From positions 1 to 64,000 of the forward strand of contig NZ_JADDOL010000007.1 in NCBI RefSeq assembly GCF_016906305.1: a stretch of 64,000 bases of DNA. The letters run 5' to 3'. The notes below the pieces were generated by a model. That model made no database searches, was not told the DNA's origin, and worked only from the letters and a program-made list of their open reading frames with translations. The position numbers were made by a program, and so were the translations under genes. Below are positions 3,219-51,156 of the stretch, piece by piece; position 1 is the first letter of the stretch; every line of letters starts with the position of its first letter. The DNA is from Alloalcanivorax marinus (GTDB taxonomy: Bacteria > Pseudomonadota > Gammaproteobacteria > Pseudomonadales > Alcanivoracaceae).

Positions 3219-3707
3219 ATGCGCCTGCCCCGTGCCCCGGAACTGCCGGATGCTCTGGTGACGCTTTCCCGACTGCAATTTCTGCACGGCTTCGTGGTGG
3301 TGGCGGTGGCCTCCGCCATCTGGCTGCCCGACCCGGTCACCGCCCGGCCCTGGCTGGACATCGTGCCGCTGCTGGCGGCCCTGTACGTGCTGCTGCAGAC
3401 CGGACTCTACTTCGGCGCGGAACTGGCCCGGGAGGGTCGCACCCTGGCGCCGGCGGCGAGTCTGCTGCTGGTGATGGCTACGGCCACGCCGTTCCTGCCG
3501 GCCTGGCTGTCGGTGCCGCTGATGGCGGTGGCGGTGATGATGCTGTTCGGGCTGGAGAAGGTGGGGGCGGTCCGCGAGCACTGGCCGGAAGCCTGGCTGC
3601 GCGGCCGCAAACAACACATGCAGTTCGTGATGGTGTCCCTGGCCAGCGTGCTGTTCTGGCTGATCAGCCAGGACAACCGGGCCCTGCTGAACGCCGCCGG
3701 CGGCTGA
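3219..3707 (+). CDS. Small integral membrane protein of unknown function
   Basis: A 162-residue protein with about four hydrophobic segments: residues 20-40, 48-65, 78-110 and 135-150. No recognised domain. It begins 25 bases after the cls stop codon on the same strand, so it is probably co-transcribed and may have an envelope role. That link rests on position only. Confidence 0.7.
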   Translation: MRLPRAPELPDALVTLSRLQFLHGFVVVAVASAIWLPDPVTARPWLDIVPLLAALYVLLQTGLYFGAELAREGRTLAPAASLLLVMATATPFLPAWLSVPLMAVAVMMLFGLEKVGAVREHWPEAWLRGRKQHMQFVMVSLASVLFWLISQDNRALLNAAGG

Positions 3708-3724
3708 GCGCCGGCGGCGGCCGG

Positions 3725-3904
3725 TCACTTCTTGGCGGGCCCGCCCGGGCCCAGCAACGCCCAGATGATCAGGCCGATGACCGGCAGCACCAGCACCAGA
3801 ATCACCCACAGAATTTTCTCGCCGGTGCTGGCACCGGACTGCACGATCTTGATGATGGCCAGAATATCCAGCACCAGAATGATCAGACTGATGATCTTGC
3901 TCAT
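3725..3904 (-). CDS. PLDc_N-like two-helix small membrane protein
   Basis: A 59-residue protein made of two hydrophobic helices separated by a short loop containing GEKILW and ending GPGGPAKK. This resembles the stand-alone phospholipase D N-terminal (PLDc_N) domain that anchors cardiolipin synthases and also occurs as a separate small protein. It is convergent with the gene at 3219, with the two stop codons 17 bases apart. Function is unknown. Its position beside a complete cls is suggestive, but Cls itself already carries two N-terminal helices. Confidence 0.75.
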   Translation of the reverse strand: MSKIISLIILVLDILAIIKIVQSGASTGEKILWVILVLVLPVIGLIIWALLGPGGPAKK

Positions 3905-4137
3905 GTCCCGCTCCCTAGGTGTGATTGAACAACCCCTCCGACGCTAGCCCGCCCCCGCCCCCCGGTCCAGCGCCGCAAGGTAAAAGCCGGTAAAGCCCCG
4001 GACTGGCGTCCCCCCACCGAATCATTACAATGGACCGCCGCGAAGCTGAAGCCCGAAGGGCGAGCAAGGGCCGCATAAAGAGTGCTTGCTCCAGCCCAAG
4101 TGCGATGAACTTGCACATACAATGACAGTTTAAAAAT

Positions 4138-4214
4138 GCCCCGGTAGCTCAGTCGGATAGAGCAAGCGCCTCCTAAGCGCTAGGTCGCAGGTTCAATTCC
4201 TGCTCGGGGCGCCA
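4138..4214 (+). tRNA. tRNA-Arg (anticodon CCU)
   Basis: A complete cloverleaf can be drawn by hand. The acceptor is GCCCCGG with UCGGGGC (last pair G-U), the D stem GCTC/GAGC, the anticodon stem AGCGC/GCGCT with loop CUCCUAA, and the T arm GCAGG-TTCAATT-CCTGC. The 3' CCA is encoded at 4212-4214. Anticodon CCU reads the rare arginine codon AGG. No repeated copy of its 3' end was seen elsewhere in the window, so there is no sign that it serves as an attachment site here. Confidence 0.96.
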
Positions 4215-4979: not shown

Positions 4980-5942
4980 ATGAAAGACACCCGGCCTCTG
5001 CTGCTGCGCAGCGGCACCGACTTTCCGCCGGTGCGGCGGCGGCGCACTCGTATTCTGCAGGTCAATCTGGGGTACCTCTGCAACCTGAGCTGCGTGCACT
5101 GCCACGTGAACGCCGGGCCCACCCGCACCGAGCAGATGAGCCGGGAGGTGGTGGACCAGGTGATCGCCGTGCTCGACCAGGGTCAGGTGCGGGTGCTGGA
5201 CCTGACCGGCGGCGCTCCGGAAATGAATCCCCACTTTCGCGATCTGGTGCGCGCCGCCCGTGCCCGGGGCGTCACCGTGATCGACCGCTGCAATCTGACC
5301 ATCGTGCTGGAGCCCGGCTACGAGGACCTGCCCGCCTTTCTGGCGGAGCAGGGCGTGCAGATCGTCGCCTCGCTGCCGTGCTATCTGGAAGACAACGTCA
5401 ACCAGCAACGCGGCAAGGGCGTCTATCAGGGCAGCATCGAGGCCATCCGCCGGCTCAACGCCGCCGGCTACGGCGACGATGACGCCCTGCCGCTGGACCT
5501 GGTGTACAACCCGGTGGGCGCCCACCTGCCGCCGCCCCAGGCCGCCCTGGAGGCGGACTACAAACGCGAACTGGACGAGCGCTTCGGCGTTCGTTTCAAC
5601 CGGCTGCTGACCATCACCAATATGCCGATCAGCCGCTTCGGCGCGGTGCTGCTGGCCCAGGGCGCCTTCAACGACTACATGCAACTGCTGCGCGACAACC
5701 ACAATACCGCTAACCTGGACGCGGTGATGTGCCGCGACACGCTCAGCGTGGATTATCGCGGCTATCTCTACGATTGCGATTTCAACCAGATGCTGGATCT
5801 GCCCCAGGGCGGCGGCCCACGCCACCCCCATCTCGGCGAGCTGCTGGCGGCGGATAAGGACGGCGAGGCGGTGTTCGTGGCCGACCACTGTTTTGGCTGC
5901 ACCGCCGGCGCCGGCAGCAGTTGCGGAGGAGCCCTGGAATGA
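4980..5942 (+). CDS. arsS: Arsenosugar biosynthesis radical SAM protein ArsS (Cys form)
   Basis: A 320-residue radical SAM enzyme. The cluster motif CNLSCVHC lies near residue 35, and a cysteine-rich C-terminus carries CFGCTAGAGSSC. This combination matches the ArsS radical SAM (seleno)protein family, linked to transfer of an adenosyl-derived sugar to arsenic in arsenosugar synthesis. Some family members use selenocysteine in the tail, but all positions here read as cysteine. The ATG at 4980 follows GGAGGAGCCCGCC. The stop overlaps the next gene as ATGA, so the three downstream genes form one translationally coupled unit. Confidence 0.85.
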   Translation: MKDTRPLLLRSGTDFPPVRRRRTRILQVNLGYLCNLSCVHCHVNAGPTRTEQMSREVVDQVIAVLDQGQVRVLDLTGGAPEMNPHFRDLVRAARARGVTVIDRCNLTIVLEPGYEDLPAFLAEQGVQIVASLPCYLEDNVNQQRGKGVYQGSIEAIRRLNAAGYGDDDALPLDLVYNPVGAHLPPPQAALEADYKRELDERFGVRFNRLLTITNMPISRFGAVLLAQGAFNDYMQLLRDNHNTANLDAVMCRDTLSVDYRGYLYDCDFNQMLDLPQGGGPRHPHLGELLAADKDGEAVFVADHCFGCTAGAGSSCGGALE

Positions 5943-37200: not shown

Positions 37201-37278
37201 GGTCAGGTCGCGATCAAGGTCATCGATGACCGTGGTAACGAGCTGATGCGGGTCTTCTCGGTTGGGGAGGCGCAATAA
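34258..37278 (+). CDS. Type III-like (beta-class) DNA methyltransferase
   Basis: A 1006-residue modification enzyme. Motif IV DPPYG lies near residue 315 and motif I DPTCGSGTTA near 604. This order defines beta-class N6-adenine or N4-cytosine methyltransferases, as in type III Mod proteins. A winged-helix-like segment occupies the first 70 residues, and a Ser/Gly/Ala linker joins it to the core. It is longer than a typical Mod. The ATG at 34,258 lies within the helicase gene end, and the stop overlaps the next start (TAATG). The middle of the gene (35.4-36.0 kb) is AT-richer and probably encodes the target-recognition region. Confidence 0.9.
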   Translation: MSNIEQIKAAILAQLPDDGTQIGNRKMQTQLVMVDELKLSEEDYRQACDELVAEGLVAKGRGRGGAIRLAGKKAEAGSGSGATSAGSRRNKKKQWNAAGTASTPAPGIGDAAGPYGNYLHDAAAISRPDVGVQAQFNVRREPKTYRYDSSLAPELCWDENAERDFAEWLLNLVEESVEKGEAEVFANEQVWKGTGDRFASLSQCVARLKSLTQPLLNWAGKAERQQISVPTVPLFVHERHSTETILKTLESHRASGTNLDLFGDENEKDIADRLDAYSHTEEWQNRLVLGDSLQVMNSLLEYEGLGGQVQMIYIDPPYGVKFGSNFQPFVRKRDVSHGRDEQMIREPEMVRAYRDTWELGLHSYLSYLRDRLLLARELLTDSGSVFVQISDENLHHVREVMDEVFPGGFVSQISFQTTSGFESNTLPTLGDFLLWYAKDKTRVKYNRVYEDQPVVLGSGNAKWLLLPNGSYRGVTAAERRGEVELPEGARLYNPGDLQSQGASSESQPFEFEGKIYNPASNSHWKPSYPEGLKRLADDGRIHVAKNSLRYRRFSDDFSYQQIGNIWTDTLTGSFTDEKLYVVQTGLKVAERCMLMATDPGDVVLDPTCGSGTTAYVAEQWGRRWITCDTSRVPLALARQRLLTATFPWYELKELQRGPAGGFVYQRKQNRKGEEVGGLVPRITLKSIANNEDPETVTLVDRPDVRKGITRVCGPFTVEATIQAAHSLAAQGERAESEKHAGYDARTYLDRMIEIVRRSKNLNLPGNRVLKLDGVRPVDSEHLHAEAVDESGKRVALMFGPEDGAIHSQQVFDAASEAYFLKYDQLYLFGFAIQAKARELVDDRARLRLPCTYISVNPDVAMDDLLKTSQTDQLFSITGLPDGKLKKAGKADDGTPLYRAEIKGLDTFLPDSMKTESLAAENLPCWMLDTNYNGMVFCASQVFFPRTQAWDNLQKSLKGQFNESLWDHLAGTESEPFAAGSNGQVAIKVIDDRGNELMRVFSVGEAQ

Positions 37279-40200
37279 TGGCGGATCAGCCGATTACCGA
37301 GGTTCCGGAACCGATTATCAACTCTCCCTATTACGAGCCAACTAGCCATTGGCAGGTGGAACATGGGGCGCAGCCAGTCAAGGCCAATGGCCGCAGGCCG
37401 GCCTATTACTATTACCGATTGCCCGAAGGTGCGAGTACCGGTCGTGCCGGTCGTCGCCAGACGGACATGCTTAGTGATGTGGATGTCGGTGAGCGCGAGG
37501 AGCTGGGCCAGGTCAACCTGATTCGCCAGAAAGTACGCGAGTGGCGTGAGGGTACGCTCACTGGTGTGCCCTACGACGGCGTCGGCCGCGTAACCCGGGA
37601 GCTGCTGGAACTTTGGCGTTCAGAAGACCGGGGCCAGCGGCTGTTCTTTGCCCAGATTGAAGCGGCGGAAACCGTGATCTTTCTGGTGGAGGGCAATACG
37701 CTGTATCACAGGGGGCTGACGAAGATCCCTCTTGATGAGCCGGGTGCGGCTGCAAGGGAAAAGGGCTACCGCTATTTCCTGCGTTATGCCTGCAAGATGG
37801 CCACCGGTACCGGCAAGACCACGGTAATGGGTATGCTGGCGGCCTGGTCGATTCTGAATCGCGTGGCAGCGCCCACCGATGATCGTTTTTCGGATACCGT
37901 CCTGATTGTCTGTCCGAACGTGACCATCCGCGAGCGCCTGCAGGAGCTTGATCCGTTGCTTGGAGATCTGTCCCTGTACCGCACCCGGCAACTGGTGCCG
38001 CCGCAGCGTATGGAAGAGCTGCGTCGTGGTGAGGTGATGATAGCCAACTGGCACCGGTTGGCCAGGCAGGAGACCAATAGCGTCAATGGCGTTTCCTCAA
38101 AGGTGGTGAAGACTGGCGAGCCAGTCGAAACCGTCAAGAAGAGTGGAAAGGACAAGGGCAAGATAGAGGTGCGCTACTTTGAATCGGACAAGGCCTGGTT
38201 TCGGCGCATTCGCCAGGAACTGGGTTCTGGCCGTGGCCGCAGCCCGCACTGGCTGGTGTTCAATGACGAGGCGCACCATGCCTACCGCCGGGGGGATGCC
38301 GACAAGGATGAGTCTTCCCTGGAGGAGGACGCCACCATGGCGAAGAAAAATGCCCGCGAGGCGACCATCTGGATCGAAGGCCTAGACCGGATAAACAAGC
38401 TGGCCAACGGCAAAAGTCGCGGCATCAATCTCTGCCTGGATCTGTCGGCGACACCCTTCTACATCCAGGGCTCGGGCAACGAGGTGGGGCGACCGTTCCC
38501 GTGGATTGTCTCGGATTTCGGCCTACTGGACGCCATTGAATCCGGCCTGGTGAAAATACCTGAACTGCCGACAGCGGATGCGACCGGCGCCGAGGACGCG
38601 GCGTATTTCAATATCTGGCGCTGGGTGCAGGCTAAGGCTGAACAGGACGGCCATGGCAGTAATGTTAAACCGCAGATGGTGATGACCTATGCGAGCCGGC
38701 CGATTACCTTGCTCGCAGCAGACTGGTATAAACACTTCGAGCGGTGGCAGCGGGTGATGAAAGACCGTCAGCGTTACCCGGTGCCCCCGGTGTTTATTGT
38801 GGTGTGTCGGGATACCAAAGTCGCCAAAGAGGTATACAGCTGGCTCGCATTGAATGAGGGCGGCTATGGTGAAAGCCCGGAATGGTTTCGCAACGAAGCG
38901 GGCAAAGAACTCACCGTACGGGTCGACTCCAAGGTGTCAGAGGATATGGAGGCCGGTGGCGGTAGCGACGAGGTGAAGCGTATGCGTTTTATCCTCGATA
39001 CGATTGGTAAGCCCGAATGGCCCGGTGGCAAGGTGCCGGCGGAGTGGTCTGAGCTGGTACGCAAGCACAATGACAAGCTCTCGTCTGATGATGGCGACGC
39101 CGAGGAGCAGGGTCAGTGGCTGGACGAAAAAGTGCCGCCGGGCCGTGATATCCGCTGCATCGTTTCGGTATCCATGCTCGCTGAGGGCTGGGATGCCAAT
39201 ACCGTCACACATATTGTCGGCCTGCGCCCGTTCGGTTCCCAGTTGCTGTGCGAGCAGGTGATTGGTCGCGCCCTGCGACGTCAGAGCTATACCATCGACG
39301 ATGGAAACGGGCTGTTTACGGAGGAAACCGCCAAGGTATTCGGTGTGCCCTTTGAGTTGGTGCCGTTCAAGAAACGGCCGGTGGGCGACCCGCCGGAGCC
39401 CAAAGAGGTGCACCATGTCTACTCGGTGCCAGAAAAGGAGAGTTATCGCATCGATTTTCCTGTGGTCACCGGCTATCAGGAAATCGACTCCCTCGAGATC
39501 AATATCGACTGGTCACAGGTGGCGCAGGTCACCATTGATCCGATGGATATCCCCGACAGCGTTCAGACGGGTCAGCTGACCGCCCCGGACGGTTCTCTGG
39601 TGGCTTTTGCAGCCGGGAAGAAGGCCTATTTAACCTTGGGGGAATGGCGCGATATGTGGCGCGACCAGCAGGTGGCCTTCGTGCTGGCGCGGGAGGTGTG
39701 CAAGCAGTGGATCGAGGAACGTGGCAGCGACGCCGTGCCTCTTGCCGAGATATTCCCCAAGGTGCTCCATGCCAGCATGCGGTTCCTCCAGGATAAGCTG
39801 GTACTTAAGAGCAGCGAAAGCCGAGCTTGTGATGTGCTGGCCGCAGGCAAGTATACACAGGGGGTAATCGGTAGCCTGCTCAACGCCATTCAGCGAGGCT
39901 CAGCGGAGAAGCGAGGACTCCTGCCGGTGGTCCCGAAAGGCGCATCTGGCATGGGCAGTACCCTGTATGTGGATTTTCACACCACCAAACCGGTACGTGC
40001 GGTGACCAAGTGCCATCTGAACCTGATGGTGGCGGATACCCGCAAGTGGGAGCAAAGCACCGGCTATCTGCTTGATCAGCATCCAGGGGTGGTCAAATGG
40101 GTCAAGAATGACCGCCTCGGTTTCCACATCCCGTACCGGCATAACAATATCCCGCACCGCTACGAGCCCGACTTTATCGTCGAGCTGGATACCGGCATGC

Positions 40201-40406
40201 GCCTGATCATCGAGACCAAGGGCCAGTACGGGGATGATGCTGACCGGAAGGCCAAGGCCGCACAGCGCTGGGTCGAGGCAGTGAACTTCGATGGCCGGTT
40301 CGGCCTCTGGATGTATGTGATGGTGACGGACCCAAGTCGGTTGCTTAAGGAGCTGAATCAGCTGTCTGGAGAGACGATGGCGGCTGCTCAGTTTGAGCTT
40401 GAGTAA
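37278..40406 (+). CDS. Type III-like restriction helicase-nuclease (BPTD_3080-type)
   Basis: A 1042-residue protein. The helicase motifs are Walker A ATGTGKTT near residue 175 and DEAH-like NDEAHHAYR near 331, with ATP-dependent helicase sequence through WDANTVTHIVGLRPFGS. A C-terminal PD-(D/E)xK nuclease domain is visible as YEPDFIVELDTG...LIIETKGQ near residues 955-980. The layout is that of type III Res subunits. The N-terminus (EPIINSPYYEPTSHW) resembles a family I recall as BPTD_3080 restriction endonucleases. It starts on the last base of the methyltransferase stop codon. Confidence 0.87.
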   Translation: MADQPITEVPEPIINSPYYEPTSHWQVEHGAQPVKANGRRPAYYYYRLPEGASTGRAGRRQTDMLSDVDVGEREELGQVNLIRQKVREWREGTLTGVPYDGVGRVTRELLELWRSEDRGQRLFFAQIEAAETVIFLVEGNTLYHRGLTKIPLDEPGAAAREKGYRYFLRYACKMATGTGKTTVMGMLAAWSILNRVAAPTDDRFSDTVLIVCPNVTIRERLQELDPLLGDLSLYRTRQLVPPQRMEELRRGEVMIANWHRLARQETNSVNGVSSKVVKTGEPVETVKKSGKDKGKIEVRYFESDKAWFRRIRQELGSGRGRSPHWLVFNDEAHHAYRRGDADKDESSLEEDATMAKKNAREATIWIEGLDRINKLANGKSRGINLCLDLSATPFYIQGSGNEVGRPFPWIVSDFGLLDAIESGLVKIPELPTADATGAEDAAYFNIWRWVQAKAEQDGHGSNVKPQMVMTYASRPITLLAADWYKHFERWQRVMKDRQRYPVPPVFIVVCRDTKVAKEVYSWLALNEGGYGESPEWFRNEAGKELTVRVDSKVSEDMEAGGGSDEVKRMRFILDTIGKPEWPGGKVPAEWSELVRKHNDKLSSDDGDAEEQGQWLDEKVPPGRDIRCIVSVSMLAEGWDANTVTHIVGLRPFGSQLLCEQVIGRALRRQSYTIDDGNGLFTEETAKVFGVPFELVPFKKRPVGDPPEPKEVHHVYSVPEKESYRIDFPVVTGYQEIDSLEINIDWSQVAQVTIDPMDIPDSVQTGQLTAPDGSLVAFAAGKKAYLTLGEWRDMWRDQQVAFVLAREVCKQWIEERGSDAVPLAEIFPKVLHASMRFLQDKLVLKSSESRACDVLAAGKYTQGVIGSLLNAIQRGSAEKRGLLPVVPKGASGMGSTLYVDFHTTKPVRAVTKCHLNLMVADTRKWEQSTGYLLDQHPGVVKWVKNDRLGFHIPYRHNNIPHRYEPDFIVELDTGMRLIIETKGQYGDDADRKAKAAQRWVEAVNFDGRFGLWMYVMVTDPSRLLKELNQLSGETMAAAQFELE

Positions 40407-41183: not shown

Positions 41184-41267
41184 CTATTTCGGGCCGGCTG
41201 ACTACTCATATTGACTGTATCTCATTTGAGATACAAAATAGCGGCATCCACCACAGGAGGACAAGCC

Positions 41268-41561
41268 ATGGCCACTCAAACCTCGATGCTCCACGTCCGC
41301 ATTGATGAAAAGCTCAAAGCGGACGCCACCGAAACTCTGGCCAGTGTCGGTCTCACGGTATCCGATGCCGTGCGCATCCTGCTGACCCGGATCACGAAGG
41401 ACGGCGGCCTGCCGGCCGGCCTGACGATGGACCCCGCCGCTCACGATACCTGGTTCCGTGAAAAGGTATTGGAAGCGCTGGCCGACACTCGCCCCGGCGT
41501 TCCGCACGACCAGGCCATGGCCGACGTGCAAGCCCTGATCGACAGGAAACGCCGTGCCTGA
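41268..41561 (+). CDS. RelB/DinJ-family antitoxin
   Basis: A 97-residue antitoxin preceded by AGGAGG at 41,256. The RHH segment is MLHVRIDEKLKADATETL followed by GLTVSDAVRILLTRIT, typical of RelB/DinJ, with an acidic tail that would bind the toxin. The toxin gene that overlaps its end is truncated, so this is an orphan antitoxin. It could still act in trans on related toxins or persist as a regulator. Confidence 0.9.
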   Translation: MATQTSMLHVRIDEKLKADATETLASVGLTVSDAVRILLTRITKDGGLPAGLTMDPAAHDTWFREKVLEALADTRPGVPHDQAMADVQALIDRKRRA

Positions 41562-42161: not shown

Positions 42162-42431
42162 ATGGCAACTTCCATCAAGATTGACGACGAACTGAAAAGC
42201 CGCGTCCAGGCATTGGCCAGCCAGCGCCGCCGAACTCCCCACTGGATCATGCTGGAGGCCATCAAGCAATATGTGACCCGCGAAGAGGCCCAGGAGAGCT
42301 TCAAACAGGAAGCCCTGGAGTCCTGGCGATCCTACCGCGAGACCGGGCGCCACCTCACGGTCCAGGAAAGCAACGAGTGGCTGGAGTCCTGGGGACGCGA
42401 CGATAAGGCGCCGCCCGAGTGCCACGAGTAA
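42162..42431 (+). CDS. CopG-family antitoxin
   Basis: An 89-residue RHH protein. The N-terminus is SIKIDDELKSRVQALASQ, then RRTPHWIMLEAIKQYVTREEA, with an acidic tail. This is the antitoxin type found with ParE/RelE toxins. Its stop lies within the next gene's start region (13-base overlap). It lies outside the integrase-bounded island, on the side that originally held the mutS promoter. Confidence 0.9.
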   Translation: MATSIKIDDELKSRVQALASQRRRTPHWIMLEAIKQYVTREEAQESFKQEALESWRSYRETGRHLTVQESNEWLESWGRDDKAPPECHE

Positions 42432-42715
42432 TCATCACCGAAGGCGCCGTGCGGGGGCTGGCGCGGTGCCGGGCTTTCCTGGAAGCCGTGGAAGCTGGAG
42501 AATCGGCCGTCCGTGCCGGTCGGACCATCGCGCGACATCTGCGGATGCTGGAGACAGTCCCGGACATGGGCCGTCCCGACGACGAGATGCCGGAACTGCG
42601 GGAGTTGATGATTCCTTTCGGCAAAGCCGGTTATGTGGCGCTTTACCGCTACCGGCCCGGTGACGATGCGGTGTATGTGTTGGCGGTGCGCCATCAGAAG
42701 GAAGCGGGCTACTGA
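42419..42715 (+). CDS. ParE/RelE-family toxin
   Basis: A 98-residue toxin beginning at GTG 42,419. It has the typical opening VIITEGAVRGLARCRAFL and the closing strand YVALYRYRPGDDAVYVLAVRHQ. It is coupled to the CopG antitoxin. Whether it targets gyrase or mRNA cannot be judged. The module looks intact. Confidence 0.88.
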   Translation: MPRVIITEGAVRGLARCRAFLEAVEAGESAVRAGRTIARHLRMLETVPDMGRPDDEMPELRELMIPFGKAGYVALYRYRPGDDAVYVLAVRHQKEAGY

Positions 42716-43029: not shown

Positions 43030-43096
43030 TTAATACCTCATAGCAGTCGTCGTGAGGCAAATGCCACGTTACTCATCAAGAACACAAGAGAGCGGA

Positions 43097-44629
43097 ATGA
43101 GCGAAACAAACATTAACCAGGGCCAGATCAACAAGGCCGTGTGGCGGGCCTGTGACACCTTCCGTGGCACGGTGGACCCGAGCATTTACAAGGACTATGT
43201 GCTCACCATGCTGTTCGTGAAGTACCTGTCGGACGTCTGGCAGGATCACTGGGACGCCTACCAGAAAGAGCATGGCGATCACCCCGATCTGATTCGGGAA
43301 CTGATGAAGAGCGAGCGCTTTGTACTGCCGCCGGCGGCGAATTTTTACTCGCTGTATGAACACCGCCATGAGCCGGGCAATGGCGAGCGCATCGACAAGG
43401 CGCTGCACGCCATTGAGGAAGAGAATATCCAGAAGCTGAGTGATGTGTTCCAGGACATCAGCTTCAACTCCAACAAGCTGGGTGACGAGAAGCAGAAGAA
43501 CGAAATCCTCAAGGCGCTGCTGGAGGATTTCCATAAGCCGGAGCTGAACCTGCGGCCCAGCCGCATCGGGCGGCTGGATATTATCGGCAATGCCTACGAG
43601 TACCTGATCGCCCAGTTCGCCGCCACGTCCGGCAAGAAGGCCGGGGAGTTCTACACACCGGCAGAGGTCTCGGAATTGATCGCCGAGCTGATGGCACCGG
43701 CGGAAGGCGACGAGATCTGTGATCCGGCCTGTGGGTCCGGATCACTGTTGCTGAAATGCGCCAACCAGATCAAGAACGCCCACAACGGCTCCAAGCGTTT
43801 CGCCCTGTATGGCCAGGAGGCCATCGGCAGCACCTGGGCGCTGGCGAAGATGAACATGTTTCTGCACGGGGTGGATAACCACAGGATCGAGTGGGGTGAC
43901 ACCCTGCGCAACCCCAAGCTGCTGGACGACAAAGGCCGGCTCCGGCTGTTTGACGTGGTGGTGGCCAATCCGCCGTTCTCGCTGGACAAGTGGGGCCATG
44001 AAGGCGCCGGTGACGACCCCCATGGCCGTTACCGCCGGGGTATCCCGCCCAAGACCAAGGGCGATTACGCCTTTATCCTGCACATGGTCGAGACGCTGAA
44101 GCCCGGCTCTTCGGCAAAGAAAGGTGGCCGGATGGCCGTGGTGGTGCCCCACGGCGTGCTGTTCCGAGGCTCCAGCGAAGGGAAGATCCGCAGGCAGCTG
44201 ATCGAGGAAAACCTGCTGGATGCCGTGATCGGCCTGCCGGAAAAGCTCTTTTTCGGCACCGGCATTCCGGCGGCGATCCTGGTGTTCCGCCAGGACAAGA
44301 CCGACGAAAACGTGCTCTTTATCGACGCCAGCCGCGAGTTCCGGGCGGGCAAGAACCAGAATGCCCTCTCCGAGGACAATATCCGCAAGATCGTCAAGAC
44401 CTACACCAACCGCGCCGATGTGGACAAATACGCCCACCTGGCCACGCCGGAGGAAATCGCCGAGAACGATTTCAACCTGAATATCCCCCGCTATGTGGAT
44501 ACCTTCGAGGAAGAGGAGGAAATCGACCTGATGGCGGTGCGGGCCGAGCGTAAGCAGCTCAAGGAGAAGTTGGCGTCCCTGGAGCGAGAGATGGACGGTT
44601 ATCTGAAGGAGCTGGGTTATGGTTCCTGA
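43097..44629 (+). CDS. hsdM: Type I restriction-modification methyltransferase subunit HsdM
   Basis: A 510-residue N6-adenine methyltransferase. The N-terminal HsdM domain is followed by EFYTP, then motif I DPACGSGSLL near residue 210 and motif IV NPPFSLDKWG near 290, the order of gamma-class type I M subunits. It transfers methyl groups from S-adenosylmethionine when complexed with HsdS. The ATG at 43,097 gives the family's usual start. It overlaps hsdS by 11 bases. Confidence 0.95.
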   Translation: MSETNINQGQINKAVWRACDTFRGTVDPSIYKDYVLTMLFVKYLSDVWQDHWDAYQKEHGDHPDLIRELMKSERFVLPPAANFYSLYEHRHEPGNGERIDKALHAIEEENIQKLSDVFQDISFNSNKLGDEKQKNEILKALLEDFHKPELNLRPSRIGRLDIIGNAYEYLIAQFAATSGKKAGEFYTPAEVSELIAELMAPAEGDEICDPACGSGSLLLKCANQIKNAHNGSKRFALYGQEAIGSTWALAKMNMFLHGVDNHRIEWGDTLRNPKLLDDKGRLRLFDVVVANPPFSLDKWGHEGAGDDPHGRYRRGIPPKTKGDYAFILHMVETLKPGSSAKKGGRMAVVVPHGVLFRGSSEGKIRRQLIEENLLDAVIGLPEKLFFGTGIPAAILVFRQDKTDENVLFIDASREFRAGKNQNALSEDNIRKIVKTYTNRADVDKYAHLATPEEIAENDFNLNIPRYVDTFEEEEEIDLMAVRAERKQLKEKLASLEREMDGYLKELGYGS

Positions 44630-45839
44630 CGGGTGGAGCGCACAAAGTGTCGGAGAATTTTGTGAGTTTTTTAATGGAAATGGATTTAAAGCTTCCGAAT
44701 GGTCCACCCAGGGCTGGCCGATCATTCGTATCCAAAATTTGAATGGCTCAAGTGATTTTAATTACTTTAATGGTGAGGTTAAAGATAGGTGGGTTGTCGA
44801 GCCTGGAGATATTCTGTTCGCTTGGGCTGGCACAAAAGGCGTTTCATTCGGTGCCAAGCGTTGGTCCGGGCCCAGAGGGGTCTTGAATCAGCATATTTTC
44901 CGTGTAGAGCCCAAGATGAAAGTTAATCCAGATTGGCTTTATTTTGCTTTGATTAGAGTTACAGAGTGCGTTGAAAATAAAGCTCACGGATTTAAAGCTA
45001 CTCTTCTACATGTCCAGAAATCAGACATTGCGGAACAAGTCATCCCCGTCCCTCCACTTTTAGAACAAAATAGAATTGCTAGAATACTTTCCACCTGGGA
45101 CGAAGCCATTGCCACGACGGAGCAGCTTCTGGCCAACAGTGAGCAGCAGAAAAAAGCCCTGATGCAGCAGTTGCTGACGGGGAAGAAGCGGTTGCCGGGT
45201 TTTGAGGGTGAATGGCAAAGCCACGTTCTTGGTGATTTGGGGTCCACTTACCCTGGGCTAGCTGGTAAGAATAAAGAAGACTTTGGTGATGGAAAACCAT
45301 ACATTAGCTACATGAAAGTTTTTTCTAGTTTGTCAATCAATACTGATATTTTTGATAGGGTTCGAATCGAAAGAGGTGAGCGCCAACACAGAGTAAAATA
45401 CGGTGATGTTTTGTTCACAACGTCTTCCGAAGTTCCGGAGGAAGTGGGAATGACTTCCGTTTTCTTGGGAGATATGGATGAGCTATATCTGAATTCTTTT
45501 TGTTTTGGATTCCGCCTCCATGATTTTGAGATACTTCTTCCCGAATTTGCAAAGTTCAAGTTACGTGAGTGGACAGTAAGAAAGACTATCGCTCGAATGG
45601 CTCAGGGGGCAACAAGATACAATCTTTCTAAAAAGCAGTTGCTTACATTGCGCCTCCAGTTGCCAGGATTGGCGGAACAACGGGGTATTGCTCTGGTGCT
45701 TGACTTACAGGAAGAGGAGCTGGACTTGATACGCAGAGATGTTAAGCGTCTGAAAGCGGAAAAGAAAGCCCTAATGCAACAACTCCTCACCGGAAAACGC
45801 CGCGTCAAGGTCGACGAGGCTGAACGAACCAGCGCCTGA
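44619..45839 (+). CDS. hsdS: Type I restriction-modification specificity subunit HsdS
   Basis: A 406-residue specificity subunit with two target-recognition domains (residues about 5-150 and 205-360). Each is followed by a conserved helical spacer containing KKALMQQLLTGK(K/R)R, near residues 175 and 385. The target-recognition DNA is clearly AT-richer than hsdM, as is usual for recombining specificity domains. The two KALMQQLLTGK repeats could support domain shuffling by recombination. Confidence 0.95.
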   Translation: MVPDGWSAQSVGEFCEFFNGNGFKASEWSTQGWPIIRIQNLNGSSDFNYFNGEVKDRWVVEPGDILFAWAGTKGVSFGAKRWSGPRGVLNQHIFRVEPKMKVNPDWLYFALIRVTECVENKAHGFKATLLHVQKSDIAEQVIPVPPLLEQNRIARILSTWDEAIATTEQLLANSEQQKKALMQQLLTGKKRLPGFEGEWQSHVLGDLGSTYPGLAGKNKEDFGDGKPYISYMKVFSSLSINTDIFDRVRIERGERQHRVKYGDVLFTTSSEVPEEVGMTSVFLGDMDELYLNSFCFGFRLHDFEILLPEFAKFKLREWTVRKTIARMAQGATRYNLSKKQLLTLRLQLPGLAEQRGIALVLDLQEEELDLIRRDVKRLKAEKKALMQQLLTGKRRVKVDEAERTSA

Positions 45840-46086
45840 GGCGTATTATGCCCAGGGATGGGAGGGTATTTTGTCACGGAAGCTAGCCCCCAACACCAGT
45901 GAACGTTACGCCGCCCATGTTCCGGCCGGGGCCCCGCTAAACCTGGCGCTTCTCTTGCCGGCGGTGGACGTTGGTCGGGGCTTTGGCGCCGGTTGGAGCC
46001 CGGGTTGGGAAATCGGGTCTCAGCCCATTCCCTCCCGGGGCGGCGGCCACTTGCGTTTGCTGGCCGGGATTCGTTATATTGTCGGT
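45840..46086. other. Vestigial hsdR start and promoter region between hsdS and abi gene
   Basis: A frame from about 45,871 encodes PNTSERYAAHVPA, which aligns with PNTSELYASHIPA at the start of the intact HsdR (47,139). It sits 32 bases after hsdS, the normal position for hsdR. It then decays. Nothing else is recognised until the promoter at 46,051. Confidence 0.65.
46051..46080 (+). promoter_or_regulatory. Promoter of the abi-associated small RNA
   Basis: TTGCGT (-35) and TATATT (-10) with an 18-base spacer. The predicted start is near 46,087. Confidence 0.65.
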
Positions 46087-46148
46087 AACACAGCCACCAC
46101 GCTTAGTGCCCTCCTTGGGGGTGTCGCGCAACCTTGGTGGCTTTTTTA
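46087..46148 (+). ncRNA. Small structured RNA upstream of the Abi_2 gene (abiF-motif-like)
   Basis: About 62 nt. An outer stem GCCACCA (46,093) with TGGTGGC (46,135) encloses a second hairpin CCCTCC-TT-GGGGG, and TTTTTT follows, so the RNA ends as an intrinsic terminator 40 bases before the abi start. A conserved structured RNA (the abiF motif) has been described upstream of Abi_2 genes. Whether this one belongs to that class needs a covariance search. It may act as an antitoxin-like RNA. Confidence 0.55.
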
Positions 46149-46187
46149 TGTCCGCCGTTTACCGGTCGGCGGGCCAGGGGCCGTCCG

Positions 46188-47123
46188 ATGCTGAAGCCCT
46201 ATACCAAGCCCCCTCTTTCGTTCGCTGAGCAGTTGCAACTTCTGGAATCCAGGGGTCTTAACATCCCCGACCAGACGCTGGCGCTCGGTCATCTGAGTTC
46301 GATCAGCTATTACCGCCTGAGCGCTTACTGGTACCCGTTTTTGCAGCGGGGCACGAACGGGCAGGTGACCGGCGTGTTCGAGCCGGGTACGGACTTTGAT
46401 CAGGTGGTGCGGCTGTATGAGTTTGACCGTCACCTGCGGCTTCTGGTGATGGATGCCATCGAGCGGATCGAAGTGCATATTCGTACCGTGGTGACCTATC
46501 ATCTCGGCCATCGGTATGGGGCGTTCGGGCATACGGATTGCGCCAATTTCCACCCTGGATTCAATCACGCTATCTGGCTTGCGAAGCTGGAGTTCGAAGC
46601 CCGGCAGTCCAAGGACGTGTTCGTCGAGCACTTCAAACGTAACTATAAAGGGTTTCCAACTCTGCCGATCTGGATGTCCACCGAGGTCATGTCTCTGGGG
46701 TCATTGTCGTTCTGTTACACCGGCCTGAAAAACCCGGATAAGAGGCTGATCGCGGAACAGCTCGACGTTCATCACAAAAGGCTGAAAGACTGGCTTCATA
46801 CCCTGACTTACATCCGCAACCTGTGCGCCCATCACGGCCGTCTTTGGAACCGGGAGCTGGCCATCAAGCCGGAGAGAGTGCGTGAACCAGAGTGGAATCC
46901 ACCGGTAACGCCCCGTCACGACAGACTCTTCTATGCTCTGCTGATTCTGCGGGTGTTGCTCCGTAGTAATCACAATGGCGACACTTGGGCGGGGTCTTGT
47001 AACGAGCTGCTGGAGACTCTGGCAAGCGAACAAAGATACCGGGTTGCAATGGGCCTCCCTGCCGACTGGAAGGCTCATCCGTTATGGCATGACATGGATC
47101 GAAAATTCGGGGAAGGGGAATAA
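46188..47123 (+). CDS. Abi_2 (AbiD/AbiF-type) abortive infection protein
   Basis: A 311-residue protein of the Abi_2 family. It shows LSSISYYRLSAYWYPF near residues 36-51, IERIEVHIRT near 91, and the HEPN motif R210-N-L-C-A-H215 in YIRNLCAHHGRLWNREL. These proteins abort phage infection and are predicted RNases. The gene lies inside a type I restriction operon, preceded by its own promoter and small RNA. It reads in the same direction and ends just before hsdR. Confidence 0.92.
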   Translation: MLKPYTKPPLSFAEQLQLLESRGLNIPDQTLALGHLSSISYYRLSAYWYPFLQRGTNGQVTGVFEPGTDFDQVVRLYEFDRHLRLLVMDAIERIEVHIRTVVTYHLGHRYGAFGHTDCANFHPGFNHAIWLAKLEFEARQSKDVFVEHFKRNYKGFPTLPIWMSTEVMSLGSLSFCYTGLKNPDKRLIAEQLDVHHKRLKDWLHTLTYIRNLCAHHGRLWNRELAIKPERVREPEWNPPVTPRHDRLFYALLILRVLLRSNHNGDTWAGSCNELLETLASEQRYRVAMGLPADWKAHPLWHDMDRKFGEGE

Positions 47124-47126
47124 TAA

Positions 47127-50100
47127 GTGAAAAGCGATACCCCCAACACCAGCGAGCTCTACGCCTCGCACATTCCGGCCCTGGTGACGCTGATGAAGCT
47201 GGGCTGGGCCTACCGCTCGCCGGCGCGGGTGATGGCATGGCGGGGTGGCTCCACCCGTGAGGTGTTGCTGCGCCCGTTGCTGATGGATTTTCTCCGCCAG
47301 CATCGCTTCGAGTACAAGGGCGAGAGCTACCCGCTCTCCAGTGACGGCATCCAGCAGGTGGTGGCCACCCTTTCGGCGCCGGGCCTGGCCGAGGGCCTGA
47401 TGTCGGCCAACGAGGCCGTCCATGACATGCTCACCCTGGGCATTACCGTCAATGAGTTCATGCCGGACGGCAAGCGCCACGCCACCACGGTGCCGTTGGT
47501 GGACTGGAATGGTCTTGAACACAACAGCTTTCTGGTCACCGAGGAGATGGAGGTTCAGAACGCCTCGGCCACCGGTCACCGGCGCCCGGATCTGGTGGGC
47601 TTTGTTAATGGCATTCCGGTGGTGGTGATCGAAGCCAAGCGGGCCGCTTCCGGCAACCCGAACAAGTCCATGATTGATGAGAGCATCAGCCAGATGCTGC
47701 GCAATCAAGGCGTGCAGGAGATTCCCCACCTGTTCGCCTTCGCCCAGGTGCTGATGGCGGTGAGCCAGACCGACGGGCGCTATGGCACCACCCGCACGCC
47801 GAGGAAGTTCTGGTCGCTCTGGGAAGAGGAGCGGGTTAACGAGGAAGAGCGCAAGGCGGTAAAGAACCGGCCGCTCAGTGACGAGCAGATGGATACGTTG
47901 TTCGCCGGCCGGCCGCCGCGGGTCCGTCAGTATTTCGAGGCGCTCTGGTCCGGGCCGGTGCTGCCCACGGAACAGGACGAGCTGCTGATTGGCGTGCTCA
48001 GCCCGGCGCGGCTGCTGGCGTTTCTGCGTTACTACATCCTCTTTTACAAAAACGACAAGATCATTGCCCGCTACCAGCAGTTCTTCGGCATTGAAGCCTT
48101 GCTGGACACGATCAGCCAGGTGGATGCCAGTGGCTCCCGCCAGGGTGGCGTGATCTGGCACACCACCGGTTCGGGCAAGTCCTTCACCATGGTATTCCTC
48201 AGCAAGCTACTGGTGCTGCACGAGGCTCTGAAACAGTGCCGGGTGGTGGTGGTGACTGATCGGGTGGATCTGGAGAAGCAACTCTCGCGCACTTTTGCCG
48301 CCGCCGGCGCGCTGGGCCTGACCTCGGTGAAAACCGGCAAGGCCGGCAGTGCGCGGATGACCTCGGGGCGCGAGCTCGCCCGGGAGATCGGGCAGGGCAA
48401 CCAGCGGGTGCTGTTCACGCTGGTGCAGAAGTTCCTTTCCGCCATCAAGCACAAAGAGTGCTACAACCCCAGTGAAAATCTACTGGTGCTGGTGGACGAG
48501 GGCCACCGCGGCCACGGCGGGGAAAATCACCAGCGCATGCGCAAGGCGCTGCCCCATGCCGGTTATCTCGCGTTCACCGGTACGCCCCTGCTGAAAAAGG
48601 ATCGGCAGGAGACGGTGGACACCTTCGGCCCGATCGTCCACGCCTACACCATGCGCCGGGCGGTGGAGGACGGTACCGTGGCGCCGCTGCTGTACGAAGA
48701 GCGGCGCCCGGCGCTGGATGTGAATCAGGCGGCCATTGATAACTGGTTTGAGACCATTACCCGCGGGCTGACGGACCAGCAGAAGGGCGACCTGAAGCGT
48801 AAGTACGCCAAGCGCGGGGCGATCTATGGCGCCGAGAACCGTATCCGGCTGATCGCCTGGGATATCGCCCTGCACTTCAATACCAACTTCAAGGAGCTGG
48901 GTAAGACCCTCAAGGGCCAGATCGCCTGCGACAGCAAGCTGTCCGCGATTCGCTACAAGCGGTTCCTGGACGAGACCGGGCTGGTGAGTTCCCGGGTGGT
49001 GATCTCGGCTCCGGACACCCGCGAGGGCCACAGTGAGGTGGACGAGGCGGAACTCCCCGAGGTGCAAAAGTGGTGGGCGGACAATGTTACCGGCGATCCG
49101 TACGAGTATGAACGTCAGACCATTGAGCATTTCGGCATGGAAGGGGCCCCGGATCTGCTGATCGTGGTGGATAAGCTGCTCACCGGCTTCGATGAGCCTC
49201 GCAATGCCGTCCTGTATATCGACAAACCGCTCAAGGATCACAACCTGATCCAGGCGATTGCCCGGGTGAACCGGCTGCACGAGGAAAAGGCCTACGGTCT
49301 GCTGATTGACTATCGGGGCATCCTCGCGGAGCTGGATACCGCCATCAAGAAGTATCAGAACCTGGAGGAGCATACCCAGGGCGGCTATGACATTGATGAC
49401 ATCGACGGCCTGTACCGCAACGTGGATACCGAGTACAAGCGCTTGCCCGGGCTGCACAAGCACCTGTGGTCCTTCTTCGGGTATGTGGATAACGCCTGGG
49501 ACATGCAGGCCTTCCGCCAGGTGCTGATGCCGCGCTATGAGGCCGACGAGGAAGGTAAGGAATATGACAGCCGTCAGAAGCTGCGCGAAGACTTCTACCA
49601 GGCGCTGACGGATTTCGGCATGTGTCTGCAGGTGGCCCGCTCATCGCGCTCGTTCTTCGAGGATAAGGCGTTTACCGACGAGATGATCCGGACCTATAAA
49701 CGGGATCTTAAGTTCTTCACCGAGCTACGCCATGTTGCCCGACAAGACGCCCAGGAAACCGTGGATTACAGCGCCTACGAGAAGCAGATCCGAAAACTGG
49801 TGGACCGGGATGTGGTCGGCGTCGAAGTGAAGAACAGCGATGAGGTTTATGTGGTGAACCGGCTCGGTGAAGAGCCGGCGGAGTGGGACGCCCAAAAAAC
49901 CCGCAACGAGGCGGATACCATCCGAACCCGGACGCGTAAAACCATCGAGCAGGACCTGGGCGATGATCCCTATGCCCAGAAAGTGTTCTCCGAGTTGTTG
50001 AAGAAAGCCATCGAAGAGGCGGATGCGCTGTTCGACTATCCGGGCAAACAGTACGCCCTTCTCCGGGAATTTGAGGATCAGCTGAGCGAACGCCGTACTC

Positions 50101-50414
50101 CGGGGATTCCTGAGGCGTTGGCCAAGGAGCGTCATGCCAAAGCGTACTTCGGTGTCTTCCGGCTTGTCCTCGGTGATGAGGAGGTGGATTCCGCAATCGA
50201 GAAGGATGCGGATGCTCTGGTCAATCTGGCCCGTGAAATCGATGGTATCGTGCGAAGCGTGGTCGCGGAGAATACCCTGAACCCCGGTGGTATTGATGCC
50301 GGCATCCGTAAGGCCCTCTTGCCACAGCTGTTCGAGCGTTTCGGATTGAATAACGCCAAGCTGATTCTCGACCAGGTAATACACATCGTCCGGGTGGGCC
50401 TGAGTCATGACTGA
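47127..50414 (+). CDS. hsdR: Type I restriction endonuclease subunit HsdR
   Basis: A 1095-residue motor and nuclease subunit. The PD-(D/E)xK nuclease is visible as RRPDLVGFVNGIPVVVIEAKRA (residues about 152-173). Walker A TTGSGKSFT lies near 346, the DEGH box VDEGHRGHGG near 457, and the helicase domain 2 motif GFDEPRNAVLYIDKPLKDHNLIQAIARVNR near 690. It is full length. The start is a GTG at 47,127 after GGGGAA. A homologous start remnant lies at 45,871. Confidence 0.95.
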   Translation: MKSDTPNTSELYASHIPALVTLMKLGWAYRSPARVMAWRGGSTREVLLRPLLMDFLRQHRFEYKGESYPLSSDGIQQVVATLSAPGLAEGLMSANEAVHDMLTLGITVNEFMPDGKRHATTVPLVDWNGLEHNSFLVTEEMEVQNASATGHRRPDLVGFVNGIPVVVIEAKRAASGNPNKSMIDESISQMLRNQGVQEIPHLFAFAQVLMAVSQTDGRYGTTRTPRKFWSLWEEERVNEEERKAVKNRPLSDEQMDTLFAGRPPRVRQYFEALWSGPVLPTEQDELLIGVLSPARLLAFLRYYILFYKNDKIIARYQQFFGIEALLDTISQVDASGSRQGGVIWHTTGSGKSFTMVFLSKLLVLHEALKQCRVVVVTDRVDLEKQLSRTFAAAGALGLTSVKTGKAGSARMTSGRELAREIGQGNQRVLFTLVQKFLSAIKHKECYNPSENLLVLVDEGHRGHGGENHQRMRKALPHAGYLAFTGTPLLKKDRQETVDTFGPIVHAYTMRRAVEDGTVAPLLYEERRPALDVNQAAIDNWFETITRGLTDQQKGDLKRKYAKRGAIYGAENRIRLIAWDIALHFNTNFKELGKTLKGQIACDSKLSAIRYKRFLDETGLVSSRVVISAPDTREGHSEVDEAELPEVQKWWADNVTGDPYEYERQTIEHFGMEGAPDLLIVVDKLLTGFDEPRNAVLYIDKPLKDHNLIQAIARVNRLHEEKAYGLLIDYRGILAELDTAIKKYQNLEEHTQGGYDIDDIDGLYRNVDTEYKRLPGLHKHLWSFFGYVDNAWDMQAFRQVLMPRYEADEEGKEYDSRQKLREDFYQALTDFGMCLQVARSSRSFFEDKAFTDEMIRTYKRDLKFFTELRHVARQDAQETVDYSAYEKQIRKLVDRDVVGVEVKNSDEVYVVNRLGEEPAEWDAQKTRNEADTIRTRTRKTIEQDLGDDPYAQKVFSELLKKAIEEADALFDYPGKQYALLREFEDQLSERRTPGIPEALAKERHAKAYFGVFRLVLGDEEVDSAIEKDADALVNLAREIDGIVRSVVAENTLNPGGIDAGIRKALLPQLFERFGLNNAKLILDQVIHIVRVGLSHD

Positions 50415-51156
50415 GGTCCGTCAGTCCCAGGAAAAGACCTATGCGGTACAGTACGGAGATCGGCGTCTGCCGTTCCGGTGGCGCTTACTGAGTGTCGACG
50501 GTGGCAAAGCGCGGATTCATGTTTATCCGGACGGCCTGGTGGAGGTGGAGACACCCCAACACACCACCCTCGCTGATGCCAAGAAAGCCCTTCTCAAACG
50601 CGCCCGCTGGGTAACCTTGCATCTCACCGATATCGAGGCGCGCCGGGCGGAGGTGCTGGAAAGGGAATACGTCAGCGGTGAGACAGTGTTTTATCTGGGC
50701 CGCAGATACCGGTTGAAAATTGTTCAGTCGTCCGGAGAGCGGCACGTCAAGATGCTTAGGGGGCAGGTGCGCGTCACCACGCCCGATACCTCGAAGAAAT
50801 CGATCAAGCGCAGCCTGTATGCATGGTATCGGGACCGAGCCAATGATGTATTCGCCCGCCGGATAGCGATGGTGGGTGAGCAGCTGTCATGGATAAAAGA
50901 AACGCCATCCTGGTCTATTCGGGACATGAAAACGCAATGGGGGAGCTGCTCACCGTCCGGTGCCATCCTCCTTAACCCGCATCTGATTAAAACCCCCACT
51001 CGGTGTATCGACTATGTGATCCTTCATGAACTGTGCCATCTGAAAGAGCACAACCATAGCCAGGCTTTTTACCGCCTGATGGCTCTTGGGATGCCGGACT
51101 GGGAACGGGTCAAAGCTGATTTGGATCAGTTGTCGGAGTTGTATTTGAGTGAGTAG
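50407..51156 (+). CDS. YgjP-like M48-family metallopeptidase (DUF45)
   Basis: A 249-residue protein. The zinc motif HELCHLKEHNHS lies near residue 207, and the upstream KTQWGSCSPSG is the DUF45/YgjP hallmark. It overlaps the hsdR end by eight bases. YgjP-like genes are commonly the last gene of type I restriction operons, so an accessory role is likely but unproven. No membrane segments are present. Confidence 0.92.
   Translation: MTEVRQSQEKTYAVQYGDRRLPFRWRLLSVDGGKARIHVYPDGLVEVETPQHTTLADAKKALLKRARWVTLHLTDIEARRAEVLEREYVSGETVFYLGRRYRLKIVQSSGERHVKMLRGQVRVTTPDTSKKSIKRSLYAWYRDRANDVFARRIAMVGEQLSWIKETPSWSIRDMKTQWGSCSPSGAILLNPHLIKTPTRCIDYVILHELCHLKEHNHSQAFYRLMALGMPDWERVKADLDQLSELYLSE

Follow-up and report, generated by a model that had tools for sequence, protein, structure and literature searches.

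In a 64,000-nt stretch of the Alloalcanivorax marinus genome (contig NZ_JADDOL010000007.1, positions 1 to 64,000; hereafter the window), a type I restriction–modification operon with hsdM, hsdS and hsdR all intact by Pfam and PADLOC carries a second system between hsdS and hsdR on the same strand: a small putative antitoxin RNA followed by abiF, a gene of the Abi_2 family. Before this pair lies what reads as a decayed copy of the start of hsdR, here called the stub. The best explanation, to which we assign a probability of roughly three in four, is that the RNA–abiF toxin–antitoxin module was inserted at the hsdS–hsdR joint and left the stub behind. The DNA itself holds the module at the hsdR start, the decaying hsdR 5' copy in front of it, an RNA that stays constant while the stub drifts, and an abiF that abuts hsdR, with 3 bases from its stop to the intact hsdR start. 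Loci (L) and genomes (G) are given our own numbers throughout.

The hsdR stub and the abi-free relative

A first-pass annotation of the window had placed an hsdR-like start 32 bases after hsdS and the intact hsdR about 1.26 kb further on. The distance of 32 bases fits the TTG-started stub frame (45871, with 31 bases between it and the hsdS end at 45839) but not the PNTSE motif, whose P lies at 45889, 49 bases after hsdS. The intact gene begins with GTG at 47127, as claimed, and the distance from the PNTSE of the stub to that of hsdR is 1253 bases. We aligned the 215 bases that follow hsdS locally, at the DNA level, to the 300 bases at the start of hsdR, with 1000 dinucleotide shuffles as a control. 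The window stub scored 60, above the shuffle maximum of 47 (0/1000), and nine internal hsdR pieces scored 18–32. Alloalcanivorax gelatiniphagus (L003/L158) has an arrangement identical to that of the window, and in the sister species the same test gave 62 against a shuffle maximum of 50 (0/1000), with internal pieces at 18–36. The hsdR-like start after hsdS is thus present and far above chance, and its similarity to hsdR spans about 110–135 bases, beyond the 13 residues noted at first. Between the window and L003, the ratio of nonsynonymous to synonymous change (pN/pS) in the stub amounts to 0.41 in the first 90 bases, with three synonymous and three nonsynonymous changes, and to 0.73 when 189 bases are taken, to 46059 (5.5 synonymous, 10.5 nonsynonymous), compared with 0.15 for abiF, 0.09 for hsdR and 0.08 for hsdM. 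By these counts the stub drifts as if it were untranslated DNA.

Comparison with a type I operon lacking abi had been set beforehand as a test, and its outcome bears the insertion out. The closest abi-free operon found, L161/L190, belongs to genome G288, in which there is no Abi_2 match, and its hsdM and hsdR are 87% and 80% identical to those of the window. Here 29 bases separate hsdS from the hsdR start codon and no second copy is present; the stub therefore sits where hsdR begins in this relative, which supports it as the old hsdR start. In six other cargo-free operons the hsdS–hsdR gap ranges from overlap to 127 bases. A related block was found in Marinobacter salarius (L002, 5690–6900): the hsdS tail is decayed, the stub shortened, and the RNA is followed by abiF, which is 77% identical over 300 residues. 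This locus yielded no hsdR, and the rest of the operon is missing. As the hsdS tail, stub, RNA and abiF are common to the window and L002, one origin of the block is probable.

There may also be a second, weak scar at the 3' end of the window abiF, which resembles a KFQEEY-type hsdR start; its score was reached by 4/1000 shuffles and 2/1000 random window segments, and it was picked after the fact. A KFQEEY-type hsdR start overlaps the abiF end in L156, L157 and L259. Near this end, L003 (6890–6945) and the window (47076–47126) differ in length by one base: the abiF stop directly follows HPLW in L003, and in the window the frame extends to 47123.

The small RNA and AbiF

The RNA lies directly 5' of abiF, 40 bases upstream in the window. 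Between the window and L003, none of the 105 bases at 46051–46155 is changed, compared with 17 changes in the 211 bases of the preceding gap. The first-pass annotation had given the RNA its own promoter, which holds in so far as a -10-like TATATT can be seen by eye at 46075–46080, within the unchanged stretch, but no site passes the consensus scan. The RNA hairpin with its U run probably also serves as a terminator. In an alignment of ten copies, nine of them distinct, 98% of pair cells are formed, compared with 31–44% when the strands are slid; five cells are changed on both sides, and the covariation score was reached by 3/500 shuffles.

From these ten window-clade copies (including L002, L003, L004 and the window) we built a covariance model, R1. 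Among 80 named-genome AbiF loci, the best 80 of 118, 56 have an R1 match immediately 5' of abi (E <= 0.01), whose end is no more than about 60 bases from the abi match; three of these loci contributed to the model. R1 matches coincide with Rfam RF03085 in L063 and L035 (two matches), both outside the model, and in L273 (the same copy as L175b), inside it; when six further loci were scanned, L259 and L273 reached the Rfam abiF threshold. The inner hairpin of the window RNA is longer than that of the G225 copy. We read the window RNA as homologous to the abiF RNA, though it falls under the Rfam threshold, and the small RNA of the first-pass annotation is thus supported by conservation, pairing counts and homologs. 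The reading of the RNA region as a conserved peptide (NTxATxxxAQPWW..., open in several loci) was discarded: in L083 the frame is broken by the loop length, the stems co-vary and Rfam-positive homologs exist. Separately, a Halomonas restriction locus carries a second abiF-type RNA (L041:3388-3436, 47.5 bits) with no abi match in the next 1.6 kb, and another at 5929 that does precede abi. Weaker orphan R1 matches occur in G169, G231 and G308, and a 38-base match in G397.

The assignment of the protein to Abi_2 held up: it matches the domain (PF07751) with 191.7 bits, against a curated cut-off of 25.6 (1.9e-56), and PADLOC calls it AbiD (1.3e-73). It also matches a solved 'Abi family protein', 8vz6, in sequence (3.1e-42), with the RNxCxHH segment aligned. 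This structure, presumably the one cited for AbiF in PMC12373285, is of the same family, only distantly related in sequence. The HEPN motif, defined as R-polar-xxx-H (PMC12373285), is present as RNLCAH, aligned to RNSCCH of 8vz6. The RNA and AbiF probably form a type III-like pair of RNA antitoxin and HEPN toxin inside a type I restriction operon. Neutralisation of AbiF by the window RNA would be its likely action, as reported for Clostridioides difficile, and we infer that AbiF would be toxic or abortive once freed.

Cargo and stubs at the hsdS–hsdR joint

We surveyed 45 operons or partial operons of the window's hsdR family, with the hsdS tail and the hsdR start resolved in 37, the window included (L156, L191, L192, L197, L030, L253, L269 and L271 were unresolved). 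At least one frame of at least 140 aa lies between hsdS and hsdR in 30/37, which is not an unbiased rate because some loci were taken for their abi gene and others were the best hsdR matches among those listed; the seven without joint cargo are L190, L195, L199, L250, L251, L252 and L265. Outside the window and L158 there are 54 cargo frames, 40 of which were scanned against Pfam. The families comprise SMODS/AGS_C with SLATT, SIR2, HerA, KAP, TIR-STAND, RhuM, DUF1016/YhcG, Fic, DUF559, Schlafen-AlbA, McrBC, AAA-15/21, NYN, DUF4917, Abi_2 and a guanylate cyclase with a below-cut-off PycTM match; 3/40 scanned frames had no Pfam match. As read from the family names, most are defence families. The hsdS–hsdR joint is a hotspot for cargo.

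Thirty slots were long enough for a stub scan with 100 shuffles each, in which a stub was counted if it scored at least 15 over all shuffles and started within the first 13 hsdR bases. Six slots carry an hsdR 5' stub (L153, with 281 bases, L264, L266, L267, L158 and the window), and 22/30 do not exceed their own shuffles. By lineage, the six appear to represent at least three events, namely the window with L158, L266 with L267, and L153; L264 perhaps belongs to the L266/L267 event, as all three precede a RhuM-type gene. We also scanned 45 slots or upstream stretches at the protein level, using the N-terminal and nine other hsdR segments, with reversed slots as a control. Below 1e-4, matches came from the N-terminal segment alone, in L153, L266 and L267, and not from any of the nine other segments; in the reversed slots the N-terminal segment gave no match. 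Weak matches were obtained in L264 (E 0.006) and the window (E 0.009). Upstream of the stub in L266 and L267 lie what we take for the final codons of an NYN gene that is otherwise mostly deleted; the slot thus resembles a palimpsest, with the newer cargo next to hsdR. Insertion by recombination at the hsdR start, as first proposed, is thus supported both by L161/L190 and by the stubs beside other cargo (L153, L264, L266, L267).

An allelic series from E. coli and Klebsiella provides a further view of the joint. Eight of its stretches are from E. coli chromosomes, six of them shown to lie beside yecA; the E. coli plasmid L306 and the Klebsiella plasmid stretch L298 complete it, and the hsdR family is the same throughout. 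L301 and L306 have no cargo; a YecA-family gene is the cargo of L298, L300, L302 and L303, and YecA with a cold-shock-domain gene that of L299, L304 and L307. L305 has a TIR gene and an insertion sequence before hsdR, and no hsdS in the stretch. Compared with L300, from which they differ in cargo, L299 and L307 each agree at 10/20 of the first 20 hsdR bases, then at 69/70 and 68/70 of the next 70, and at 492 and 502 of the following 510. The first 20 hsdR bases of L304 and L305 are identical to those of L299; further on they diverge more, with counts of 476/510 and 445/510. Between some alleles the exchange border lies ~20 bases into hsdR, and we interpret the series as an exchange of cargo through recombination with its endpoint in the conserved hsdR start.

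Proposed history, rival accounts and related systems

In the history that we favour, incoming DNA with the module would have entered by recombination at the start of hsdR, which is conserved in this family, and the other junction would have fallen inside the old hsdR, leaving its first ~110–135 bases as the stub and an intact hsdR downstream. By analogy with the C. difficile AbiF, a short RNA made in abundance and terminated at its own hairpin would bind and silence AbiF. Once host transcription is shut off by a phage, this RNA would decay and the freed AbiF would cut RNA and halt growth, providing a second line of defence if HsdMSR restriction fails. The RNA–toxin binding, the trigger and the recombination route are what we infer in this explanation. 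hsdR follows abiF directly and, like it, lies behind the RNA hairpin, so that one set of read-through transcripts probably yields both proteins. A role for AbiF as a guard sensing the loss of HsdR has no support beyond its position.

Several observations weigh against this account. On the side of the stub, the pN/pS values are based on few changes (6 over 90 bases and 16 over 189), and the protein-level resemblance is weak (E 0.009; 12–14 residues match). No clear stub is present in 24/30 cargo slots, nor is one apparent in seven E. coli/Klebsiella slots (local scores 25–35, without shuffles), so cargo entry does not always leave a stub. L273 and L261, which were not counted, exceed their shuffles by <=5 at internal hsdR positions, suggesting that the lower limit of the stub scan is noisy, and the N-terminal segment also matched once on the minus strand (E 0.029). 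The donor and the direction of recombination were not found: a source of the PNTSERYAAHVPA-type hsdR appeared neither in a viral-contig pattern search nor among the hsdR starts compared, and a 20-residue tblastn search of plasmids gave one match, at E 9, though it lies in a Bartonella hsdR start. On the side of the RNA, the consensus scan accepts no promoter and does not flag the bulged hairpin as a terminator. Pairs with changes on both sides number 2, a count that 219/500 shuffles reach, and the fold energy is unexceptional (z -1.67, 12/200 shuffles; z 0.21 for a longer stretch). R1 finds no match at E <= 0.01 in 24/80 named loci. The window RNA lies under the Rfam RF03085 gathering score in the window scan, with no match up to E 1 in 45800–46260, and only 2/12 abi loci scanned reach the Rfam threshold.

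The order of events could also have been different. An abiF–hsdR unit from another operon may have replaced the old hsdR, so that the stub is the old remnant and the intact hsdR is foreign. We consider this possible, though on the unlikely side. abiF adjoins hsdR in 6/7 cases with abiF before hsdR (the window, L158, L156, L157, L259 and L063), and in three of these, L156, L157 and L259, the two genes overlap, the abiF end with the hsdR start; in the seventh case, L030, however, ~0.75 kb separate abi from hsdR, at a contig end. The window hsdR is moreover of the same PNTSELYASHIPA type as that of the abi-free L190, the 80% identity is nearly as close as the 87% of hsdM, and the identity profile against L190 has no clear 5' break (0.70 over the first 50 residues, 0.56–0.96 elsewhere). 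A further pointer is the KFQEEY-type mini-scar at the abi end, which would fit an abiF derived from the other hsdR type. Given the closeness to L190 and this weak scar, we favour the intact hsdR as resident, which modifies the first-pass proposal that recombination had brought a different hsdR 5' end: the insertion is supported, but the origin of the intact hsdR leans towards the resident gene.

A Campbell-like single crossover, by which a circle with RNA–abiF and an hsdR 5' fragment would place the module between direct repeats, from which it could be excised, is unlikely. Its appeal comes from L267, where ~100 bases of the stub are almost the same as the hsdR start, giving usable direct repeats around one cargo gene, and from L153, whose stub finds its best match in the hsdR of L153 itself. 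However, L266 carries much the same stub as L267, closer to the L262 hsdR than to its own, so gene conversion explains L267 equally well; the window repeats have drifted too far to tell, and no circular form or recombinase turned up, with no search aimed at either. A stub that serves as a working leader is very improbable. Its 107-codon frame, open in both Alloalcanivorax species, runs through the RNA to a stop just inside the abiF start (in the window at 46194, four bases after the abiF ATG) and could couple abiF translation; but few stops are expected in GC-rich DNA, the copy in L002 is shortened and altered, and the pN/pS of the frame is 0.73 over 189 bases (few changes). A chance resemblance of a short peptide motif has next to no probability: the match at the protein level is confined to the 12–14 residues (E 0.009), but 0/1000 DNA shuffles in two species rule out a chance match of the stub, which lies at the right place and on the right strand.

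A further action has been considered for the RNA, in addition to that of an antidote to the toxin, as a switch shared by both genes, whose hairpin would hold down AbiF and HsdR until both are released on read-through or RNA decay; we think this quite unlikely. Genome G225 offers a natural test of an abiF RNA serving hsdR alone. It has two tandem abiF RNAs (L175:474-524 and 687-736, the second being L273:9454-9503) directly before hsdR and behind a DUF4917 gene, and no Abi_2 gene was found in this 95%-complete genome, an arrangement that would fit an RNA retained, or left behind, as an hsdR leader. A possible abiF relic between the two RNAs was dropped, the best same-strand candidate having E 0.033.

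Embedding at the hsdS–hsdR joint is already known (PMC12255303, PMC12409362), as is PrrC in EcoprrI (PMC12707154). The nesting of one defence system in another, as claimed at first, is thus present, yet not unusual, with the joint often occupied and embedding in print. The RRDM island of E. coli E2348/69 has DarTG2 between hsdS and hsdR, a joint that its authors describe as a potential hotspot of recombination, and the portion of the text available makes no mention of a stub (PMC12255303). Like the window, the island combines a toxin–antitoxin system at the joint with a zinc metallopeptidase gene after the operon, but it has a protein antitoxin and the RptR repressor in front, whereas the window has a putative RNA antitoxin, AbiF and an hsdR stub. 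The TgvAB system of Vibrio cholerae lies in the type I cluster of VPI-2, where HsdS (VC1768) and HsdR (VC1765) flank VC1767 and VC1766 (PMC12409362), and is likewise a second defence system embedded in a type I cluster; it is a type IV modification-dependent restriction system, in contrast to the toxin with a putative RNA antitoxin of the window. In C. difficile, the AbiF-associated RNA RCd22 binds and neutralises AbiF, and AbiF is described as the ancestral type behind Cas13 (PMC12373285). There too, a short RNA that has its own terminator immediately precedes the gene of an Abi_2 HEPN protein, but the pair is prophage-borne and has two RNA motif copies, with no restriction operon around it in the part of the text available. 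PrrC is a tRNA anticodon nuclease within EcoprrI that is activated on EcoPrrI inhibition (PMC12707154). It resembles the window AbiF as an RNA-cleaving growth-arrest protein (for AbiF, by family) inside a type I operon, but PrrC responds to inhibition of EcoPrrI, and no such contact is shown for the window AbiF. We know of no RNA that holds PrrC.

A literature search of open-licence PMC papers found no report of AbiF at the hsdS–hsdR joint or of hsdR 5' stubs, and phrases for hsdR remnants in such papers gave none concerning cargo scars, as judged by title; one of these, PMC6918075, mentions a truncated hsdR five times. To our knowledge, it is not settled how embedded defence genes, which are in use for finding new systems, enter an operon without breaking it. 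As footprints of cargo entry, hsdR stubs would provide both a place (the first ~20–280 bases of hsdR) and a searchable mark, and they give a likely direction, with new cargo entering next to hsdR and older cargo shifting towards hsdS. AbiF with its RNA inside restriction operons would make an RNA-held toxin as a backup of restriction testable.

Table 1. Features of the restriction operon and its embedded module in the window
Feature	Position	Strand	Basis
hsdM, type I restriction-modification methyltransferase subunit	43052..44629	+	N6_Mtase, HsdM_N (Pfam); MTase_I (PADLOC)
hsdS, specificity subunit	44619..45839	+	Methylase_S, two stretches (Pfam); Specificity_I (PADLOC)
hsdR 5' stub, reads as decayed hsdR start, TTG start, LSRKLAPNTSERYAAHVPA	45871..45990, end approximate	+	DNA alignment to hsdR start; aligned to 45990
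promoter-like stretch of the RNA, TTGCGT - 17/18 - TTATAT/TATATT	46051..46080	+	by eye, under scanner threshold
abiF-type antitoxin RNA (putative): hairpin, conserved 3' bulge CAACCU, then U run	46086..46147	+	model R1, 66.6 bits (window copy in model); pair counts
abiF (Abi_2/AbiD-F family), putative HEPN-type toxin, 311 aa, RNLCAH = RxxxxH	46188..47123	+	PF07751; 8vz6 match
possible mini-scar, abiF 3' extension resembling first codons of KFQEEY-type hsdR	47088..47126	+	shuffle test, suggestive only
intact hsdR, restriction/translocase subunit, GTG start (MKSDTPNTSELYASHIPA)	47127..50414	+	HSDR_N, SWI2_SNF2, T1R_D3-like, ResIII (Pfam); REase_I (PADLOC)
YgjP-like metallopeptidase gene, often closing operons of this type	50407..51156	+	PF01863

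An SprT/M48-type metallopeptidase gene downstream of hsdR is also present in L197, L198, L199, L298 and E. coli L299–L307. Upstream of the operon, the window encodes a ResIII-matching protein of 1042 aa (37278–40406), a RelB-like antitoxin (41211–41561) and a ParE-like toxin (42419–42715; Pfam), and by these matches the operon sits among further defence or toxin–antitoxin genes.

A second structured RNA, about 50 bases in length and with a terminator hairpin in addition, was observed directly 5' of a gene family with the NYN domain (PIN-like nuclease), for example at L153:4224-4298 (-), with the NYN gene at 3503–4186 (-), and in L282–L297. No Rfam match at gathering was found for it in the loci scanned, and no paper joining an NYN domain with an antitoxin RNA was found among open-licence PMC papers. 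Orphan copies lie at L156:2640-2714, L266:6323-6396 and L267:6301-6374. An alignment of 18 copies, 15 beside NYN genes and 3 without (L291 and L294 were left out), gave 20 pairs in RNAalifold, 13 of them with compensatory changes. Together with the NYN gene, this new-looking RNA looks like a candidate pair of RNA antitoxin and NYN toxin.

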